From: Halichondria panicea
Lineage: Eukaryota; Porifera; Demospongiae; Suberitida; Halichondriidae
Assembly (NCBI RefSeq): GCF_963675165.1
Contig: NC_087382.1
Coordinates: 7,302,315-7,366,314 of the forward strand
Direction of reading: 5' to 3'
Length of the DNA: 64,000 bases
The notes beneath the pieces are model-generated. The model was not told the DNA's origin and ran no database searches. It was given only the letters and a program-made list of their open reading frames with translations. Position numbers and translations under genes: made by a program. Positions 3,925 through 61,395 of this stretch are shown here, piece after piece. The first letter of the stretch is position 1, and each line of letters starts with the position of its first letter.

Positions 3925-5535
3925 CTGCAGCTCAAGCACACCTGTCCAGCAACATTTTCTCCATACAACGCCTTCTCATGGATCTGACCAATCAGGTTGC
4001 GTAACACCAGGTGGAGGTAGCAAGAGTATGGCCGCCCAGATTGAGAATGGCGGCGTGGCAGGATATCAATACTGGAGACTGCTGCCAGGTAACTCCACTG
4101 CAGATAGTGTGAACTGCATACTGTTACTGTTCCACCTCACTTGTATTAGAGCTTTAGCTAGCAAGCCAAGAAAACACTGGCTCTCTCCTTAGCTGTTCAT
4201 GTATTGTTTATGTGCGTGCTACGTCAGTGCTGCACGTGTTTTTTTGTTTTGGTAATTATAATGTTCTCCTGTCCTTACACAGAAAAAAGTGGTTGACTCC
4301 TTCGGAAAGTTCAGGTCAGCTTTACTACATGTGTACGTACCTGACTTAGCACCTATTGGGGTGTAAATAAGAGATTGAGTTACTATTGGGCATACAGGAC
4401 ATGTAATGGGTAAAAAAAGTACCCGTATATATACATGAACGTACTAGTGATTATCAAAGCCAAAACTTTGTTCCCCGAAGGTGTCCGTTATGTAGACCAC
4501 TCAAACTTTGTGCAATGCTGACATGTAATGTCTAAACAACCTCTGCCACCTCTCTTTTTTGAGAGGCTTCAGTAGTTACGTATCTACCTCCCTAAAATCT
4601 CTCTAAATGCTGAGAAATTATCAGTGTTTTCTTCTGGTTCACAGACTGAGTTCATTGTAGACAGTGAGGAGTGTGCACAGGGCCAGAAACACGGGAGCAA
4701 GCCTGGCATCTCTCTCCAGTTTGATGGCCACTGGGACCCATCGCCAGCATCAGCTCTTACCGGACAGCTGGGAAAACGTACGTGCTTTATTTTAAAAGAA
4801 TGCCAGCCTGTTTTGAATACATTTTGTTATGGGCAGTCGAAGATAGTTGCGAATTCCTCTGTAACATTATTCTATGTACATCTAGCCCTGTATCCACTTT
4901 TTCAGTGGTGCTCCCTTTCTTGCACTGGGCGTAAGCACACAAACAGCTTATACACTACACTTATACAAGTATGTATTTCCTACTAAGTCAGTAGAGCTAC
5001 TTTTTAGCTTATTCTGTCTGATCATGTGTATCATTATTATTGTGGGGAGGGGGTATTATTGCGTATCATGTGCGTTTTCTTGAACTTTGACCTCGACTGC
5101 CAAGTACGAGTACGAGTGGCAACCCAGAGTAAGGATCTGCATTATACCCTACACCTACAAGACATGAATCAAATACGTACATGTATGTATAGCATCGTAC
5201 CAATCGGCCTGATACAAAAGAAAAAGCATGTACCATCATGACCGTCGGTTCTTGCACGTCCCTCCAAATAAGCTGAAAGTAAACTCGAAGCAGCCACCCT
5301 CCCAACCAGCTCAACAGGTGAGTATAGCGGGCTTAGAAGCAAGAAGTGTATTGCATGCAGTGTTACAATGTATAATTAGTTCCTGGTAGTGTTTTGAGTG
5401 TGTGTCAGAAAGTACTCTGATTCTCCATCTGACCGTACAGGTAGAGTTGATTGGGAGCAGTGATATGAGAATGAAGCAGCTAAGGATAATATCAAAGAAC
5501 AAGAACAGAAAGCGAATGACCTCGTGGTAAGTGTT
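3925..5535 (+). other. Exon-like segments of an unrecognised + strand gene
   Basis: Several segments are bounded by plausible splice sites. About 3932-4087 (CTGCAG acceptor, GTAACT donor) includes GGVAGYQYWRLLP. About 4645-4778 (TTCACAG acceptor, GTACGT donor) includes the residues SLQFDGHWDPSPASALTGQ. Further segments follow at about 5240-5315 and 5440-5526. The last two recur at 10200-10516, so this is half of a diverged duplication. I could not join the pieces into one frame and do not recognise the family. They may be remnants. Confidence 0.35.
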
Positions 5536-5539
5536 TCAG

Positions 5540-6007
5540 ATTTCCTCTAACAGCTAGTGTACAAGTTCCGTGTGTATTTAACCTACCACCTATTATCCAG
5601 GCTATAATTATACGTACTTTAGTTATCTACATGTAATTAGGTAGGGTCTTTAGGAGGAAATTCCCTTACAAATATCCCCCACTATAGCAACCTGAATTGT
5701 AGCAATAAATTGTTGAGAGGATAAGTAGTACACCACATCTTTGCAAATGCTGCCACGCCCTTTCTCGAGAGGCACCCAAAAACAATATAATTATACACAC
5801 GAACTACGGATGCTTTCCCAACATTAGAACTCCTCATGCATATGAACACCATGCATAGACTCTGACACTCAGTAACATGCTTTAAAATACTTTATGTGGT
5901 TGTGTACTTAACAGTGACCCTGTACACAATGCAAGAAAACAACAATGTGAGTACATAATATGTACATGCATATATACAATGTACAATATGGGAGCTCAGG
6001 TATAAGG
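5540..6007. other. Gene-free spacer
   Basis: No coding or repeat structure was recognised. It is AT-rich and lies between the + strand exon-like segments and the 3' end of the FHA gene. Confidence 0.4.
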
Positions 6008-6096
6008 TTATTTACGCCGCTTCTTAGCAGCAGGTACTTGAGACGTCTCAGTGGCTGAGGCCGAGGCCTTACGGTTGGAGGTGGGGGTGCGGCAAA
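6008..6096 (-). CDS. Alternative terminal exon of the FHA gene with a basic tail
   Basis: This exon follows a TTTCAG acceptor and ends with KKRRK and a TAA stop, which looks like a nuclear-localisation tail. It connects cleanly (phase 1) to a donor at 6322. The connecting exon 6322-6439 is then read in a different frame from the one the FHA exons deliver. So this is an alternative 3' end reached by alternative splicing or a frameshift, or the upstream stop reflects a sequence error. Residues just before the exon are proline-rich. Confidence 0.4.
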
Positions 6097-6356
6097 CTGA
6101 AAGGGTTGTTGCTGGAAGGAAATACAATTGGTTTGAAGTACGCCAAGTTTTTGTTTTTGCGTTGAGCAGTTACAGAGCTGGAATACACACACACGGACAC
6201 AGTCAGCTTTATGCCGTAGTCCTCGTGCGGTCGAGACATAATTATGTCAATGTTCGTAGACACTAAAGCTACCACTCAAGTAATCTCCTATACGTACATA
6301 TATTTGTTGTACAGCACTCACCAATTGGTGGTGGTTGAGGTTGAGGGCTCTCCTCC

Positions 6357-7112
6357 TCAGTTGTAATCATAGTCCTCCACACTCTCTTGAGCCTCACTGG
6401 GGCCATGCAACACTGTACTGGTTTCACTCTCCTCTGAAACTAAGACAAACCATATAGTTCACCAAAAACCTACTGGAGCATAGAAGAGTTACCTTCTTGT
6501 TCATCATTGGCTGCCTCCTCCTGCCCGTTTCCTATGAGGTAGTAACAAGTGATATTGGCCAACGTCACCTGCACTCCGTCCGTCAGCTCATAATAGATGT
6601 TAGGCTTGAGGGCCACCTGGGAGGTGGGAGGGAGTGACATGCACATCACTACAATTACATCTCAGTGTAAGTTAGATTTTTGTCTTGTCGCTCAATAATC
6701 ATTTAACCAGCGGTCAAACATTAGACAATCTAACTGTCTCACATGCATGTACATGTATGTATGATTGCAATACCACCTTTCGCCTGAACGTCTTATTCCG
6801 ACTTCCAAGATCCTTTATAAAGTGTGAACCCTTCTCCACAAGTATCTGTGCATGTTTCCGGGAGAGGGACCCATTGGAGAGTGTCACATCACAATCCTCC
6901 CCACGTCCTACCAAGTTATCCCCTGTTGTACATATATGTGTGTATAGAAAATCGGGGACACACGCACACACACATGCACAGAGTATGTACAATCGACTCA
7001 CCCTCTTTGAGGAAATAGTCGAAATATACCGGGGGTGTATATTCTACGTTTTGGGAGATATTCTTGTCCTGGGAGAGCACTCGCAAAAGGCTCGCTGATT
7101 GGTGCTCAAAGT
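6357..7112 (-). CDS. FHA-domain protein, MDC1-like (5' end incomplete)
   Basis: Exons on the - strand are 7002-7112 (5' boundary uncertain), 6777-6922, 6493-6616 and 6357-6439. All have GT-AG borders and matching phases. Joined, they give a forkhead-associated phosphopeptide-binding domain. It has the NLVGR strand, the central LSRKHA motif with the phosphothreonine-contacting S-x-x-H, and the LGSRNKTF loop where most FHA domains have G-S-x-N-G-T. It closes with strands YYELTDGVQVTL and ITCYYL. The spacing after the GSxN loop resembles the FHA of MDC1, a mediator of the DNA-damage checkpoint. After the domain the frame is acidic and stops at TGA (6359-6357). No start codon was located. The exact orthology is inferred; the FHA call itself is strong. 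Confidence 0.7.
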
Positions 7113-14855: not shown

Positions 14856-15101
14856 AGGAATAAGGCCCTTAAAGGCACTTCATTATTTATGGTACCAACC
14901 CTGAGTACCGTATAGCGGGTAAGTTTCGTGGGGTAAAAAATTCGTTCAACTCGAGAAATTTACTAAGATATCTCGATCAAGAATCTTGGGGCAAATGACG
15001 CATGTACAGACAGTGTATACCAGGCCGTCTTTCTCAATTGAGAGCGGCCTGGAATCAAGGCTAACCTACAACTTACTTAGCATTCCTAGTAAAGAGGATT
15101 T

Positions 15102-31851: not shown

Positions 31852-31954
31852 TAGCCTCGATCCCAGGCCGAGTTTTCGCTTTTATAACGGTTAGGCGAAC
31901 AACTGGTTCGCCTAACCGTTATAAAAGCGAAAACTCGGCCTGGGATCGAGGCTA
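31852..31954. mobile_element. Mutator-like foldback (TAGCCTCGAT family), perfect palindrome with 10-bp target duplication
   Basis: Two arms of about 49 bp begin TAGCCTCGATCCCAGGCCGA and are exact complements around a very short loop. AACAACTACA is duplicated on both flanks (31842-31851 and 31955-31964). A 9-10-bp duplication fits the Mutator superfamily. No transposase is encoded. Other members of the family lie at 54318-54493, 61329-61386 and, diverged, 56470-56555. Confidence 0.85.
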
Positions 31955-35930: not shown

Positions 35931-37265
35931 CCTCTCATAATTCCATGCCGCTCTCAGTTAGTATACACTGTCTGCGCATGCGTCAGTTGCCCCAAGATTC
36001 TTGGGGATCGAGATATCTTAGTAAATTAGTCAGTATATTGTATACTTCTGTTCTGCTCTTGCTCAAGCTCTCTCCAGTGTTGAAAAGTCAGATTTTGTCT
36101 TCTCTTGTACTGTGGTAGAGTGGTAGGCATTTTTCTGTCAGTACCAACCAGCTCTGGCAAATCTACTTGCTTCCAGACGCTTGTTTGATGCATGCCATCT
36201 CAGTAAGATCAGTGCTCCTCGTATGAGCCTAGAGTTGTGATGGCGATTTCTCTCTCTTGACACTAATCAACCCCACGTACGTCGGGTGACCATAGTACAA
36301 AAGGTTAATTGATAAAAATTAATTACAAAGAAATCCACCCACGCGCAAACGGTGATTACCAGGCCCTCTAGTGAGAGGGGCTGGGATCGAGGCTAACCTA
36401 CGTATCTCCTCTGCTCTGCGTCCAAAGGAGGTCGGACACTTTTTCACCAATAATATTTATGACCTTAGGCCAAATTGCTTTTCGTTTTTGCTGACTCAGC
36501 AGTAGAACAGACTGGCCGGATCTAGCTTGTATGGCTATTATGTGCTGATAAGGTTAGGTCCAGTAACCATCACAGACACCAACACAACAAGTTGTCAACA
36601 GATTCAGCGACAGAAACCGTGCAGAAACATTGTCTAATAAATCAGTCGCTCTCTATGACATGGACTACAGTACTGTAGTGATTAGGCCGCCCAACTTTTA
36701 GAGGGCGGCGGAAATATGAGACTAGCTACTAAGCTGCTAAGCTGCGCTATACTCTGTCTTCCTACAATGTAGTATAACCTTCTTCATTTAGCTACTCTGT
36801 TCCAAGTTTACTGTTATTGTCTTCCTAAAGATAATCTAGTAGATTATCATCTGTTGCACTCAGTTACTGTCTTCCAAGTTATTGTCTTCCTACATAGATT
36901 GTTCCTACAATACATAGACTCATCTGTTGCTAAATATATACTTACTCTGTCTTTCAATTAAGTTATTTTCTTCTTAGATTAATCTCATATGTTGCATCTA
37001 GTATAATTACGTACATGCCAATTACCATCCAATAAATCATGAAGAAGTGAATAGCTGCATGCAAGAGTAACTTTATCTATATACTCTTGCTGCATGCCTC
37101 GGTGTGCATTAATCATTGGTAGCTGCAAGAGTGAGGGCTCTGCTGACATGATGCAGCCACTTTTAGCATCGATCGTTTTTAACAACAATCATGGTCGATC
37201 ATTACCTATATATACTGGATTCTCTTGCAAGTGCAAAAATGTTCATCGTGATATAATGTATAAAG
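35931..37265. other. Gene-free spacer
   Basis: A one-armed copy of the CCAGGCC / GGGATCGAGGCTAACCTACG family is at 36359-36405 and a GCCGCCC hairpin at about 36690-36712. Nothing coding was recognised. Confidence 0.4.
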
Positions 37266-47659: not shown

Positions 47660-50600
47660 TATTACTATACTATTGAGCAGATAGTATACCATGCATGACA
47701 CTGGAGTGTAGATCTTCACTTGCACTGTACTATAGCTATAATTATACACAGTATCTTTGTTTTAACCGAGCCTGGACTATGTCCATGAACTTTGACCTTA
47801 TAATTAATTTTGTCTGTGCGCATGCCTCGACTCCCCGCGGCCTGGAACCAAGGCTATACATGGGCAGTTCCAAAGATACAGGCTCTGAGAGACTGAGACA
47901 CACTGTGACAGGGCCAAAAGAGTTCATTTACAGTAGTGTACAACACTTTCTTTGTAAACTATGAAGGAAACTATTGTAGATGAACTAAAATTCAACAACA
48001 TTGTAAACTATTAATAGTCTGTGATGTACACTCGCAAGTACAAACAAGCTGTAAACTAGATCTACTACTTTGGCCCTGTGAGAGGATCAGGATTATACAC
48101 AGTGCTAGTGCTGCACCAGCACATGATACAAGTGCAGGGGGAGGTCACTACATGTACATGCACACTATGCTACTGCTGTCAGGGAGGTAATAATTATTAT
48201 GCCTCGAGGCGTAGCCGCACAAGGGATACGACTGTGTGTCTGTCTGTCTGTCTGTCTGTCTGTGTATTCCAGCTATAACTGCTCAACGGTTACAATGCAA
48301 CGAAAACTAACAGCTTCTATAGGCTTCTAGCCACGTTCTCTTGGATTTTGATTCGTGGATTAGCAAACTAAAGCTTCTTTCTCGAGTTATGGCTAGTTTG
48401 ACTCACATTGAAGGCTGTTGCAGTTTCTTCAGAATCTTTCATAGCATCATCTGTTCCCACAAACTTTCTATTCAACTTATGAGTTAGCCTTGCACTTAAG
48501 CGCTAGCTTTTTGTTGGCTACAAGAGTTAGAAAGAGCCAAGCTAGCTAGCTATTTTAGTAGCCATTATTGGCAGACACACCCCTATTCCTGGATGTAGAT
48601 CTAATGCGCATGCGCGCTCAATACCTGTAAGAGAATCCATTTTGCAGAATCAGCAATTTTCTTCTTTTGAGGTCCAGGTAAGCCACAAACCAATCTTTTC
48701 TACACAATTTGCTTTACTGTGTTTAATGTTCATTCAATTGCTAACACCTATTTGAAATCATAAATTATTGCAAATTATTAACCTTTCTATAACACTCTAA
48801 TACTTTTGAGCGAAATCAAAAACATGGCGAGAGGCATTAGCACAGCGCCAGCTTGAACACTAGTTATCAAGGCAAGGGGTGAATGCACCACCAAATGGAC
48901 TTTGAACTAACCTGGGAAATTCAAAATCCAATGCACAGTAGCTCAATAACCACAACAGATAACACAGCAGCAGCACAACAATTAAGCCACAGACAGGAAA
49001 TACAACACACAACAACCACAATTAATTAGCTATTATAGTCTGTACACAGGCAGTAGTCAGTTTTCCTTTAGTACTCCTAATGCAATATGAGAGTATAGTC
49101 TGGTGTAACAATCTCTGACAGATATAGAGAATTATCAACGGTCTATATAAACAAAATTATGTCCACGAAGAACCTGGCTTCGTGTTCGGTCCTGAACGTA
49201 CAGAATACCTTTTTCTTAGGATCCTGATTGATTGAAAAGTAAAATTGCTTTCCATCATGTCCCACCATCCACATGTCACATATTAAATACTTTGTAGCAA
49301 AAGGTCCTTTCCTATTGCTTCTGCCTCACCAGTATTGCAACTTGTCTATTGGGCATGCCCATATCTTGTTGTTGCAGTGAATTTTCAGCGACATGCACAG
49401 ACAGACAGCTTCCCATAGTGATACTCTTGAGCACTTTCTTAACATAAATTCATAAAAGTAAAATCCGATAGAGGTCTGTAGCCAGAGCATGTGCATGCTC
49501 CATCCATGCATAACCACTATACATGTACTCTTGACCACTACTCCTGACTGACCACTCTCATTCATGTCATTCATGTGTGGCCAGTGATTAGGTCTGATAA
49601 TGTGCATTTGTCTGTAAAATTCTGTATGGCTATATTGGATTTGCATACTAGTTGAGAAGTGTGGCGCTTCACTGCTAACTTAAAGGATAATAGATCTACT
49701 GTCAAGAGGGTTCAAAATAAACAGAACACACCCTGCATGAGGCACATAGAAGCTACGTAACACCATTGTTGCATCTAAGAAGAATGGTTTTGTGTTAGCC
49801 CACCAGGAATTCCTGTATGATAGCTGATTCAAACATTGCAAAGGAGTAGTATTAAAATGTGTCTGGTTGCTATTGTTGATGCAGGTGTGTCTCAAAAGAC
49901 ATAATTAATTCATGTTTGTCAGTACTTCCATGTTTGTAATGAGCTGCATGCCCTATATATATAGCTCTCCACCTTTGTGGTTTATACGCCCTGGCATGAT
50001 AACGAGTAACTTCAGCACTGCATATAGTGGTGAGACAGGTTCTGCATGACGAAACCCAGTTCATTCAGTGAGTTTACGAAGTAGCTATAGAAGATGCCTG
50101 ACGCTGTTGATATAGATTCGCAATTTCAGATATAATTATAGCTCCCCAAATGGCAGCTGCTCTGAAGAAAACTACATAATGCCTGGGATTCACCTACAAA
50201 ACCTATCGACTCTCCACTTGAGACAATTTCAATCATAATCATCAGGGCAGCTACCATGCAACATCCATACCTGTCCAACACTCAGTGGATTTTAATGCAC
50301 TCACTGATTTCCATTCTAGGACCAACTATATACCACCTGCAAACTCACGTCACTTCACAAGCATGCACTGAGCTCTCAAATTTAGACATGGATGAAAATT
50401 ATGCTCAGAAACTTTGAAGCCTTCAGTAAGCCAGATTGTCCTGCTGGCTTAAATGTGTCGCTATCAGTATAGCAAATTTGAACAAAGTATTTTAATGGAG
50501 CTCTTCCTAAACTCTGCAACATGCATAACATATCTGGCCCAAAAGAAACACCTTAGCTGAGCAACATGCATGCATGCAGCACTCTGTTTGCAGGGAGAAT

Positions 50601-54300: not shown

Positions 54301-54317
54301 TAGATCTAGTTATATAC

Positions 54318-54493
54318 TAGCCTCGATTCCAGGTCGAGTTTCGCTTTTGGATGATTCGCTCTAGGTTTGCAAGCTTGCTTTCTGCACTCGCTGTGGTAAA
54401 TTTTGAGCCGAATTGCTGCGATTGGATTACGGTTAGTTGAGCGAACAAATTTAACTGTTATAAAAGCGAAAACACGGCCTGGGATCGAGGCTA
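54318..54493. mobile_element. Mutator-like foldback carrying a captured exon fragment
   Basis: Ends are TAGCCTCGAT and ATCGAGGCTA, with the family-typical CCAGGCCG(A/T)GTTTTCGCTTTT inside. GTTATATAC (9 bp) is directly duplicated at 54309-54317 and 54494-54502. The interior 54345-54441 is identical over 97 bp to 55383-55479, the 5' part of the glutamine-synthetase exon of copy B, in the same orientation. The matching intron of copy A (near 58883) has a single GTTATATAC and no element, so this insertion came after the duplication. Confidence 0.88.
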
Positions 54494-56469
54494 GTTATAT
54501 ACATGCACATGCACATGCACACAAATTATAGGTCACAAGTTCACAACTGATCCGTGGCTATTTTTTGGTCTTATAGAAATATAGATACATGCATAACAAA
54601 CCCAGTGTTGCCCCATCTTGCTAAGACTGTAAGCACCATTATGATCAGAGAAAACATTTCTCTTTCGATCCATGTCCCATATAGAATAGTTGTAATGCGC
54701 TGAGGAGCCACATGCGTCAGGGAACGGTTTTGTCATGAAGGTTATCACATGCCCTTGCTGTTGGGCAATTTCTTTGATGGCTGTTCTGAATGCAAATGCC
54801 TCGTCTGCTCCCCCAAGACCCCATGCTGGCTTGCATGATATTTCAAACTGTCCCGGACCACCTTCTGATTCGAAACTGTACATATCTCCTGGGATTTGTC
54901 TGAAGATTTGGTGAAACAATTTTGGGAATTGATTGTTTCTAATTGTAGATCTTGTACTCGTACTTGTTTCAATGGGTGTGCAATCTTTGTTTGTGATAAA
55001 GAATTCATGCTCAAAGCAGGATAAGAGTGCAAGACCCATGTCTTCAAGATTTTGCAGTTGACGTTTTGCTAGCCATCGCGGATGAGCTGACACAGGTTTG
55101 TTGTTTTGATGAAATGGTTCGACTAGAATTTGAGCAGTGGATTCAGCCCAGGGTAGCACACAGAATGTGCTCAGATCAGGGAAATTCAAAAAATCACCGT
55201 AGCTCATTTCCTCCAAAAATCCAGCTCCCTCTACATCATTTGATGCTACATCAATACTCAACATTGGGGGCATGTACTGCCCTTTGTATGCCCTATCTCT
55301 GAGATACTTTGATAGAATAGTTTTCGAGCGTGAAATACCATGCATATCAGTTTGCTCCAAACGAATAAACTCAATCAGCTCATTTTGGATGATTCGCTCT
55401 AGGTTTGCAAGCTTGCTTTCTGCACTCGCTGTGGTAAATTTTGAGCCGAATTGCTGCGATTGGATTACGGTTAGTTGAGTGGACTAAGCACAAATATTAT
55501 TGTAGCATTGCTTCATAAAAATTATTAAGACACAACATTAAATATTGATCTACTGTGCTTTGGAACAACAAATATAACACTCGCTGCATGTGGCAAATTT
55601 TGAGCCGAATTACTGCAACTATAATTATTACAGTTAGTTGGACTAAGCACAGCTGATATTACTGTAGCATTGGCATATGCTATTACAAAATACAATTGAT
55701 CTACTGTGCTTTGGAACAATTGATATTAGCTGATAATTTCCGGGAGGGGGGAAAAATATTCGTGGTTGAACACTGGACCACAAAATAATATTTACCCACG
55801 AATGAATTAAGTGACCTTGACTGACCCCCCCCCCCCCTGAAAATTACCTGCTATACGGTATCACCATTATATTTTTAACCACGACCTCAGTTCATGTAAG
55901 TTAGAGAAGAATACTCACTTTTCTATTCAGTAGAATCGACATGCATACCATCACAGCTGTATATATATAGCTAGATAATATATATACATAATAATTTATA
56001 CCTGAGATAGAGTGTCAGATATAATGTCAGATATCTGAAGCACACTAGATCTATAGCCAAAGACAATCTGTAGTATAAATTAGTGGCTATAGTTATCTCT
56101 AGCTAGATTTATAGTTTTATTACACCATTGATATACTAACTCTAGCAGACTAGCGAGTATATATAGCAGATTATATAGCAGCATTATAGATCTACTCATT
56201 ATAAAACATACCGAGGATGCCAGCAGCAGTCTACATGGAACTGTCATATTGAATATCCCTCAAGCAAAGTCTCGCGGGAAGCCATTGCATGCATACCTTA
56301 TCACAAGGCTTGTGTTGCCATATACCTAACCAGCAGAAATCCCATAATTCCAAAATGTGACCGCGCCTGTTGTGCCACACGCCAATGCAATCAAAATCGC
56401 TTTCTAGATAAGCTGTGAAACCGCACCCATATAAGCTTACTGTATTATGGTCTATTAATAATGTCTAGC

Positions 56470-56555
56470 CCGATCCCAGGCCGATCTGTCTCCAATTGAA
56501 CGCTAGGAGGTGACCTAGCGTTCAATTGGAGACGGATCGGCCTGGGATGGAGGCT
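56470..56555. mobile_element. Diverged GATCCCAGGCCGAT palindrome
   Basis: TAGCCCGATCCCAGGCCGAT, then TCTCCAATTGAACGCTAGG, and the complement form nearly perfect arms around GAGGTGA. The outer 20 bp resemble the TAGCCTCGAT family and the inner arm is different. No clear target duplication was seen. Confidence 0.65.
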
Positions 56556-56649
56556 CTAGGTTTGCACAACAGTTGTCCACAGTAATAGCAAAACCACAAT
56601 TATCCTTGGAAGCCAGCTATATGAATAGAGACTGACTTCTTGTGTGTGA

Positions 56650-58034: not shown

Positions 58035-59883
58035 CTACAAATGTTGAAAATAATACTTTTTTCTCCCAGTTTGAATCCTCCTTGTTCTCTTCGTACAGCC
58101 GTATTTCATGTTTCTTGACTGCTGTAAAGCACCTTACAAATTCATCACCTAATGAATCAATAATGACTTTGTCTTCATTTAGAGCATCTAGAGACTCATG
58201 GAGACTTCTTGGTAATGGGGGACAAACATCAGGACCTAGTTTAAAAGCTTCGTCTTTGATTTCATTGGGCAGTTCAAGTTCTCTCATGACACCGTCTATT
58301 CCAGAAGCGATTGTAGCAGCCAGGCAAAGGTAAGGATTCGCTGAACTGCAAGCCATTCGGTTCTCATAGAATGTCTTGTCATTGCCATTGTTTTTTACTC
58401 GAATGAGTGTGTTGCGATTGTCTATACCCCAGGAGATATTGTAGGGACTGTAAGCTCTCTGAGATAAGTGTTTCCAGCAGTTGATGGTTGGTGCCAGGAG
58501 ACAAGAGATGGCTCGTGAGTGCCAGATTTCCGGCAAGCTATAAAATACAATAAAATGTGAGGAAGTAATCTAAACAAGGTCCTGAATGTACCTACCATAT
58601 AGCGGAAATTTTTGTGAGGTGCCAAATTTTGGTTTTTCGAGGGCAGAGCATTGACACAAAAATATAACTGGGAGAAACCTAGCTAGCTCCCACGCACCCG
58701 TATTTCACAAGCAAAGCTCTTGGTGGGTGTAGTTTCCTGGCATTGAAGCAAGTATTACAATGCCAGGAAACTAATAATTAATTTTTTTCGGAGGGCTCTA
58801 GAACCAAATAGTGAAAATTTGCACCTGCAAACATTTTCCGCTATATACGGTATTAATACATTTGCATCCAATGATATGCTGGATCTAGTTATATACACAT
58901 GCACATGCACAATGTAGGTCAAAAGTTCACAACTGATCCGTGGCTATTTTTTGGTCCTATAGAAATATAGATACATGCATAACGAACCCAGTGTTGCCCC
59001 ATCTTGCTAAGACTGTAAGCACCATTATGATCAGAGAAAACATTTCTCTTTCGATCCATGTCCCATATAGAATAGTTGTAATGCGCTGAGGAGCCACATG
59101 CGTCAGGGAACGGTTTTGTCATGAAGGTTATCACATGCCCTTGCTGTTGGGCAATTTCTTTGATGGCTGTTCTGAATGCAAATGCCTCGTCCGCTCCCCC
59201 AAGACCCCATGCTGGCTTGCATGATATTTCGAACTGTCCCGGACCACCTTCTGATTCGAAACTGTACATATCTCCTGGGATTTGTCTGAAGATTTGGTGA
59301 AACAATTTTGGGAATTGATTGTTTCTAATTGTAGATCTTGTACTCGTACTTGTTTCAATGGGTGTGCAATCTTTGTTTGTGATAAAGAATTCATGCTCAA
59401 AGCAGGATAAGAGTGCAAGACCCATGTCTTCAAGATTTTGCAGTTGACGTTTCGCTAGCCATCGTGGGTGAGCTGACACAGGTTTGTTGTTTTTATGAAA
59501 TGGTTTGACTAGAATTTGAGCAGTGGATTCAGCCCAGGGTAGCATACAGAATGTGCTCAGATCAGGGAAATTCAAAAAATCGCCGTAGCTCATTTCCTCC
59601 AAAAATCCAGCTCCCTCTACATCATTTGATGCGACATCAATACTCAACATTGGGGGCATGTACTGCCCTTTGTATGCCCTATCTCTGAGATACTTCGATA
59701 TAAAATAGGATAGTTTTCGAGCGTGAAATGCCATGCATATCAGTTTGCTCCAAACGAATAAACTCAATCAGCTCATTTTGGATGATTCGCTCTAGGTTTG
59801 CAAGCTTGCTTTCTGCACTCGCTGTGGCAAATTTTGAGCCGAATTTCTGCGATTGGATTACAGTTATAGTTGAGTGGACTAAG
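58035..59883 (-). pseudogene. Glutamine-synthetase-type protein, copy A (two or three frame lesions)
   Basis: Exons 58988-59883 and 58035-58537 match copy B exon for exon. A 7-bp insertion (59700-59706, ATAAAAT) breaks the frame right after HGISRSKTI. A 2-bp deletion at about 58522 breaks it again after LAGNL. An extra A near the C terminus (KK run, about 58058-58063) changes the last residues. Elsewhere the protein reads as in copy B, including the FEHEFFI and GGPGQFEIS motifs and an intact C-terminal stretch ENRMACSSANPYL. The lesions sit at different sites from that of copy B. It is most likely a pseudogene, unless the assembly is faulty here. Confidence 0.75.
58590..58852. mobile_element. 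Complete TACCATATAGCG MITE in the intron (copy A)
   Basis: Ends TACCATATAGCGGAAATTTT and the complement of AACATTTTCCGCTATATACG match. A short internal hairpin GTTTCCTGGCATTG / CAATGCCAGGAAAC is present only in this copy. Confidence 0.7.
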
Positions 59884-60149
59884 CACAAATATTATTGTAG
59901 CATTGCTTCATAATAATTATTAAGACACAAAATTAAATATTGATCTAGGAACAACACGTATATAACACTCGCTGCATGTGGCAAATTTTGAGCCGAATTA
60001 CTGCAATTATATTACAGTTAGTTGGACTAAGCATGCATGCAGCTGATTTTACTGTAGCATTGGCATGCTATTACAAAATACATTGTGCTTTGAAACAATT
60101 GATGTGAGCTATTAGCTGATAATTTCCGGGGGGGGGGGTCAAAGATGCA

Positions 60150-60905: not shown

Positions 60906-61328
60906 TCTAAACTGGTTTGACGGCATCTTACTCAGCAAGAGAGAGGGATTAACACCTTGTGTGTACAGTCATACACTATTGCACAACAATACCAAATAAG
61001 TAGATGTAGTCTATTTAACACTATAACTTCTATAATCAAGCTAAGGCAAGAATCCTGGCATAAAAGTACCTATATAATAACGAACAAATACTACGCACAA
61101 ACAATAACCAACTAAGAAACGCACTAGTCTTTCACAATGGTGTTGGATGAATATGTGCATTTAATTGTTATAGTGGTACTCATTACTTGGGGTTTATATT
61201 GTGGCTTGAACTACTTTCCACCATCTCAACTTCCTTTTTGTTCATGCGTAGATGCCGCGAAAGTTTCGACCTGGAAGATTAAGTAAGAACGAAGACAGAA
61301 AACCCCTTCTTGATCTCACCCAAGACAC
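60906..61328. other. Gene-free spacer
   Basis: I saw no coding sequence or named repeat. Confidence 0.4.
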
Positions 61329-61386
61329 TAGCCTCGATCCCAGGCCGAGTTTTCACTTTTATAACAGTTAGGCGAACAACTAGCCA
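61329..61386. mobile_element. One-armed Mutator-like element with 9-bp target duplication
   Basis: TAGCCTCGATCCCAGGCCGA and the rest of one arm, ending AACTAGCCA, are flanked by CCAAGACAC on both sides (61320-61328, 61387-61395). The second arm is missing, so this is an internal-deletion derivative. Confidence 0.75.
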
Positions 61387-61395
61387 CCAAGACAC

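Follow-up and report, generated by a model that had tools for sequence, protein, structure and literature searches.

Host-gene sequence inside TIR transposons has been described in animals as well as in plants, with 370 Pack-TIRs reported across 100 animal genomes by Tan et al. 2021 (PMC8277862), a survey that overtakes the view, in the initial annotation of the present DNA, of gene-capturing forms as known chiefly in plants. The Pack-TIRs reported there belong mostly to hAT and Tc/mariner. Among the unique ones, 56.9% lie within 15 kb of the parent and 67.6% have microhomology at a breakpoint, and multicopy Pack-TIRs of frog and alligator are distal from their parents. Captured gene sequence is also described in plant Pack-MULEs and in Ssk-FB4 of Drosophila, a foldback element; a multicopy state is reported for Ssk-FB4s and for roughly one third of the Pack-MULEs of rice. 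AcademH, a group of the Academ superfamily attributed to Kojima 2020 (cited in PMC10045372), is described as having target-site duplications (TSDs) of 9 or 10 bp, those of AcademX being 3 or 4 bp, a property related there to helicase and nuclease (PMC10045372). KolobokH of fungi is described as a TIR transposon with RecQ, and Kolobok as duplicating the 4-bp TTAA (PMC9587614).

A 64-kb window of Halichondria panicea DNA (the whole stretch that was analysed) contains a short hairpin element filled with a piece of the glutamine-synthetase-like gene in whose intron it lies. Like the gap-filled, single-copy animal Pack-TIRs (PMC8277862), this element has non-TE sequence between both ends of one TIR element, with breakpoints within the element, a close source (within 15 kb) and short words in common at the breakpoints; it is single-copy, its identity to the parent is at least 90%, its best parent is unique, and there is microhomology at a breakpoint. 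It differs from the Pack-TIRs of Tan et al. in being a palindrome of predicted AcademH type, and its 97 bp of captured sequence fall short of the internal length of more than 100 bp used in their pipeline, which is not a biological criterion. The filled element would therefore escape that pipeline, and is likened to Pack-TIRs by mechanism and not by their criteria. With AcademH (PMC10045372), the family has in common TSDs of 9-10 bp, helicase in its long members, and ends common to short and long elements; the filled element itself differs in being a gene-free palindromic derivative of ~100 bp. Plant Pack-MULEs and Ssk-FB4, which is a foldback element as here, resemble it in having captured gene sequence, a TIR element and 9-10-bp TSDs, and differ in that the long members of the present family encode RecQ-like and DUF6589 sequence and no MULE, and in that the filled element is single-copy; the best-matching MULE clade, described below, has other ends. 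KolobokH has a RecQ helicase in a TIR transposon, as do the long elements described below, but its TSD is the 4-bp TTAA, whereas those found here are 9-10 bp without TTAA. No captured-gene case in Academ was found among the matches listed in searches of the literature on animal Pack-MULEs, metazoan gene capture, AcademH, and Pack-TIR or Pack-TYPE elements. The process behind the filled hairpin is a known one, of which this is a clear but single example, and the transposon type is not the one first proposed; the readable junctions reveal how a hairpin transposon can acquire a piece of its own host gene.

Anatomy of the filled element and its source

The features of the element, of the gene copy that contains it (copy B) and of the second gene copy (copy A) are as follows.

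54309..54317, + strand: left TSD GTTATATAC (sequence comparison)
54318..54348, + strand: left arm of the short palindrome, of which 31 bp remain (alignment to the 106-bp family palindrome)
54345..54441, + strand: captured segment, identical to 55383-55479
54442..54493, + strand: right arm of the element, matching the family end without change over the outer 19 bp and altered further in
54494..54502, + strand: right TSD GTTATATAC (sequence comparison)
54533..55453, - strand: copy B exon of the glutamine-synthetase-like gene, with an approximate 3' boundary (profile and sequence matches)
55383..55479, - strand: source segment in gene copy B (exact match to the captured segment)
about 55580-55640 (copy B) and 59966-60024 (copy A): partial tandem copies of the exon start and intron end
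58888..58896, + strand: empty site in gene copy A, a single GTTATATAC (flanks match those of copy B)
59776..59874, - strand: homologous segment in gene copy A, with 3 substitutions and one 2-bp indel relative to the captured 97 bp

The 176-bp element (54318-54493) has TAGCCTCGAT ends and lies in the intron between TSDs identical at 9 of 9 positions, which bears out its initial description as a foldback element with a perfect 9-bp duplication. Its left arm differs from the 106-bp family palindrome by 2 substitutions and 1 deletion, and a genome search allowing up to 3 mismatches found the inner variant of its right arm nowhere else; compared with the end of the short elements, its own left end has 2 mismatches and its right end none. 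The longest exact match between the element and the exon region is 97 bp (54345-54441 = 55383-55479). The TTTT that ends the left arm is common to element and exon and can be attributed to either, so that the unambiguous filler is 93 bp. The initial annotation had described the interior as 97 bp of exon: the exact identity holds, but on the coding (minus) strand the piece begins with 26 bp of probable intron, the last three bases of which are CAG, and continues with about 71 bp of exon. This boundary was placed from the reading frame, and the 71-bp part is open when read in phase with the coding sequence downstream. A putative 98-nt exon would extend between the captured 3' splice site and the TSD junction GTATATAAC; of the three frames tried, 0 and 2 are open in it. 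The presence of a captured piece of the host gene inside a hairpin element is confirmed. When folded as single-stranded DNA, the filled element has a predicted energy of -34.9 kcal/mol (z -4.85).

The host gene matches the profile Gln-synt_C (E 2.2e-31) and 33 distinct solved sequences (E <=0.001), nearly all of them named glutamine synthetases or relatives. Source and filler lie 1,038 bp apart in the same gene and on the same strand. Between gene copies A and B, 26 of 1285 aligned positions are substituted (about 2%), and copy A retains the empty site, with one GTTATATAC between matching flanks, as had been proposed. The segment of copy A, with its 3 substitutions and 2-bp indel, is not the source, in support of the earlier choice of copy B. 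A genome search with the 97 bp, in which very common words were skipped, gave four matches, none of them outside the glutamine-synthetase-like locus. Two are the element and exon B, and the others are exon A, at 95%, and a partial copy next to it, at 83%. On this genome-wide search the 97 bp are not a dispersed repeat. At one site within the 97 bp, exon B and the filler have ACGGTTAG, copy A has ACAGTTATAG, and the partial tandem copies have ACAGTTAG; either exon B changed first, thereby offering the ACGGTTAG homology, or the filler later converted exon B. Next to the source exon, each gene copy also has a decayed, incomplete tandem duplicate that covers the start of the exon and the end of the intron. 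In the intron of copy A, near the empty site (about 58731-58772), there is a different short inverted repeat, AGTTTCCTGGCATTG ... CAATGCCAGGAAACT, which is absent from copy B.

Family ends and the long TAGCCTC elements

At up to 1 mismatch, TAGCCTCGAT occurs 11 times in the 64-kb window, whereas 100 shuffles gave 1.89 on average and never more than 6. The genome searched comprises 131.5 Mb in 39 contigs, in which the end TAGCCTCGATCCCAGGC was found, at up to 2 mismatches, 4650 times in the forward and 4625 times in the reverse orientation; the same pattern read backwards occurs 1 and 2 times. With two ends per element, these numbers put the family at no more than a few thousand elements.

Two long elements have TAGCCTC at either end and 9-bp TSDs on their flanks, one of 5,643 bp (TSD GGTAAACAC) and one of 6,353 bp (TSD CATCATCAT), and the outer 19 bp of the short-element end match the left end of the latter at 18 of 19 positions. 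The 5,643-bp element encodes a RecQ-like helicase with DEAD, Helicase_C and RecQ_Zn_bind domains and, on the opposite strand, DUF6589 open reading frames (ORFs; E 2.7e-31 and 1.9e-15), together with a weak match to zf-AD, below its cut-off, on the DUF6589 strand. The 6,353-bp element has a DEAD-box piece and a DUF6589 match limited to the beginning of the domain (E 2.7e-9), its frames being otherwise broken. No MULE domain was reported in five ORFs of the long elements (E <=0.1). For a wider comparison, 44 of 150 listed RecQ matches were used, namely those under 85% identity, with a near-identical group of 1-kb elements left out, and 18 of the 44 lie within 6 kb of one of the 92 DUF6589 hits, compared with about 0.4 expected; the other 26 have no DUF6589 hit within that distance. 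DUF6589 was found in 0 of 14 control genomes, and literature searches for DUF6589 by name returned no paper. DUF6589 is presumably the Academ transposase. Because helicase together with 9-10-bp TSDs is the published signature of AcademH, Kolobok being characterized by TTAA, the TAGCCTC family is assigned, from sequence comparison, to a probable AcademH type, with DUF6589 as its putative transposase.

Several further sequences of this kind were observed. An ORF inside the 6,353-bp element (L068 and L070 joined, 5199-6466) appears by eye to be tyrosine recombinase-like and is perhaps a nested element, and EGF-like or teneurin-like coding sequence, which points to an animal host, adjoins one of the long elements. 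Within the window, 35961-36395 is a long TAGCCTC element with an internal deletion, in which pieces of the 6,353-bp element are recognised from its helicase side and from each of its ends. Single ends of long elements are found at 14957-15063 (a 92% match to 110 bp at the left end of the 6,353-bp element) and 47838-47856. A 1,065-bp TAGCCTC element (L035:5506-6570) contains a RecQ-like remnant, the peptide of which has no Pfam match at E <=1; at least 40 scored copies exist (of 149 candidates), with different 9-bp TSDs in five of the six examined. This peptide was considered as a second captured host gene and rejected, since it is multicopy and matches the helicase of the long TAGCCTC elements, and the 1,065-bp element is read as a probable deletion derivative of the latter.

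The initial annotation had placed the filled element in the Mutator superfamily, with reference to Pack-MULEs, in which case the exon piece would have been captured during MULE transposition. TSDs of 9-10 bp are compatible with MULEs, the MULE domain (PF10551) has 31 hits genome-wide, and TAGCCTC-like ends (up to 6 mismatches) were found at 6 of the 20 MULE loci scanned for 1.5 kb on either side. MULE copies were read across both sides (three) and at the right end (a fourth), together with four further 7.2-kb stretches, one of which (L047) has a 44-bp TAGCCT-like end pair ~0.4 kb past its last long ORF. The best-matching PF10551 clade, however, has inverted ends of its own, starting with CGCTGTGACTATTC, and one copy has the TSD AATAATTAA (by eye); TAGCCTC occurs there only as insertions, copies L033, L034 and L035 sharing one position within the left end that is occupied by TAGCCTC palindromes of 36-57 bp, with GCAACTTCC on the flanks. 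At L022, one of the six loci with TAGCCTC-like ends, a 516-bp TAGCCTC element with a 9-bp TSD lies directly beside the MULE hit, and the ends here, at L047 and near the other MULE loci are, by analogy with that clade, read as probable insertions. What the TAGCCTC ends and 9-bp TSDs do enclose is RecQ-like and DUF6589 sequence, and none of the 44 RecQ matches has a MULE hit within 6 kb. The Mutator assignment is not supported by these observations, a Pack-MULE origin is very improbable, and MULEs were rejected as the autonomous partner in favour of the RecQ/DUF6589 elements. AcademH likewise makes TSDs of 9-10 bp, and TSD length alone thus misled the first reading; the move of this case from Mutator to AcademH-type indicates that it is an unsafe guide to superfamily.

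Junctions and the order of capture and insertion

In alignment with the 106-bp palindrome, the element retains 31 bp at the start of the left arm and the greater part of the right arm, and the filler sits between TTTT and CGAACAA, within one half of the palindrome, and some bases of the centre are missing beyond it. The last 13 bases of the filler, ACGGTTAGTTGAG, have ACGGTTAG in common with the element's own TATAACGGTTAGG, which precedes the point where the element resumes. Among 20,000 random joins, at least 4 shared bases on the left occurred at a frequency of 0.005, an 8-base word on the right at 0.001, and both together at 0, frequencies that are indicative, the windows having been chosen after the junctions were seen.

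The filled element probably arose by gap filling in situ, through template switching from an exon of the same gene into an AcademH-type palindrome. The starting point would have been a non-autonomous palindrome of ~95-106 bp in the intron, flanked by its own 9-bp insertion duplication. The palindrome may have broken, or a replication fork stalled, near the palindrome centre, whereupon the growing strand would have paired via TTTT with the exon ~1 kb away, on the same chromosome or the sister, and copied ~93 bp. Annealing at ACGGTTAG, with a bulge of 4 bases, would probably have brought the strand back to the element, where it would have completed the right arm. Capture in place is favoured by the single copy of the filled element and by a source that shares its gene and strand.

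The reverse order, in which the exon piece was acquired elsewhere and the filled element then jumped into the intron (FoSTeST type), is possible but rather unlikely. With a perfect TSD and outer ends that are still recognisable, the filled element could move, the unique variant of the right arm could also have been left by a cut-and-paste move, and multicopy Pack-TIRs are reported to have formed in this way (PMC8277862); but the genome contains one filled copy, with its source 1 kb away in the same gene, and the transposed multicopy cases of Tan et al. are described as distal from their parents. The arms have 5 changes in 76 positions and the filler 0 in 97 (Fisher 0.015), and at the ~2% divergence of copies A and B, 0 in 97 has P 0.14. 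Since that divergence is so low and the insertion is probably younger than the A/B split, the identity of filler and source does not date the capture. That the intronic 97-bp copy does not exist, and is an artefact of assembly, is hard to credit: the copy is exact and its source merely 1 kb away, as such an error would have it, but it stands between two mutually differing arms, with homology-marked junctions and a matching TSD, in an assembly of 39 contigs for 131 Mb.

Length variation in the short palindromes

The following two members of the short family in the window retain their TSDs.

31852..31954, no strand assigned: ordinary 103-bp palindromic member with 10-bp TSD AACAACTACA (ends and TSD)
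61329..61386, + strand: half element in which one arm is present as far as the centre and the other is missing, between its two copies of the 9-bp TSD CCAAGACAC (61320-61328 and 61387-61395)

The typical short member is a near-perfect palindrome no longer than 106 bp, with a TSD of 9-10 bp where this is clear; by the test used, no TSD was found for members L001 and L006. The 103-bp member has a predicted single-stranded DNA folding energy of -65.7 kcal/mol (z -20). Lengths were sampled among 117 elements of 85-115 bp with exact 16-bp ends, of which 50 were listed, 43 of them of the main type: from their coordinates, 9 of these 43 are 106 bp long, 33 are shorter and 1 is longer. Most of the 50 retain both arms and vary at the centre (by eye), and in one, at C5:1789037, the break appears by eye to be at the same CGCTTTT as in the filled element. 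The variation in centre length among these members, together with the half element at 61329-61386, indicates that change in the length of the centre is a habit of the family.

The comparison of element interiors with host DNA that the initial annotation had proposed was run on part of the family. A census of elements of 144-174 bp with exact 17-bp ends yielded six, from which the filled element is absent because its left end carries 2 mismatches. Five of the six consist to over 90% of the short-element consensus; in the sixth (L039) the consensus covers 92 of 168 bp, and the remainder resembles another family element (by eye). Recognisable host filler was found in none of the six. When 10 longer elements, five of them copies of one element, were compared with their own flanks (2-12 kb each), one matched, and this was the filled element. 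Captured host filler as a habit of the whole family is not shown by these samples.

In-situ gap filling at this one locus, considered probable above, could be an instance of something more general, in which palindromic AcademH-type short elements break chronically at their centres and repair sometimes writes in neighbouring host DNA; this is offered as a tentative suggestion, with the odds somewhat against it. If it is true, the family would be a natural record of hairpin-induced template switching, and pieces of exon bearing splice sites would have been sown into introns. The many short palindromes of variable centre length are in any case a natural sample for the breakage and repair of palindromes in an animal genome. 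Just upstream of gene copy B (56466-56556), where no TSD was found by the test used, lies a palindrome of a second short type, with the same outer end and a different arm (CGATCTGTCTCCAATTGAACGC).
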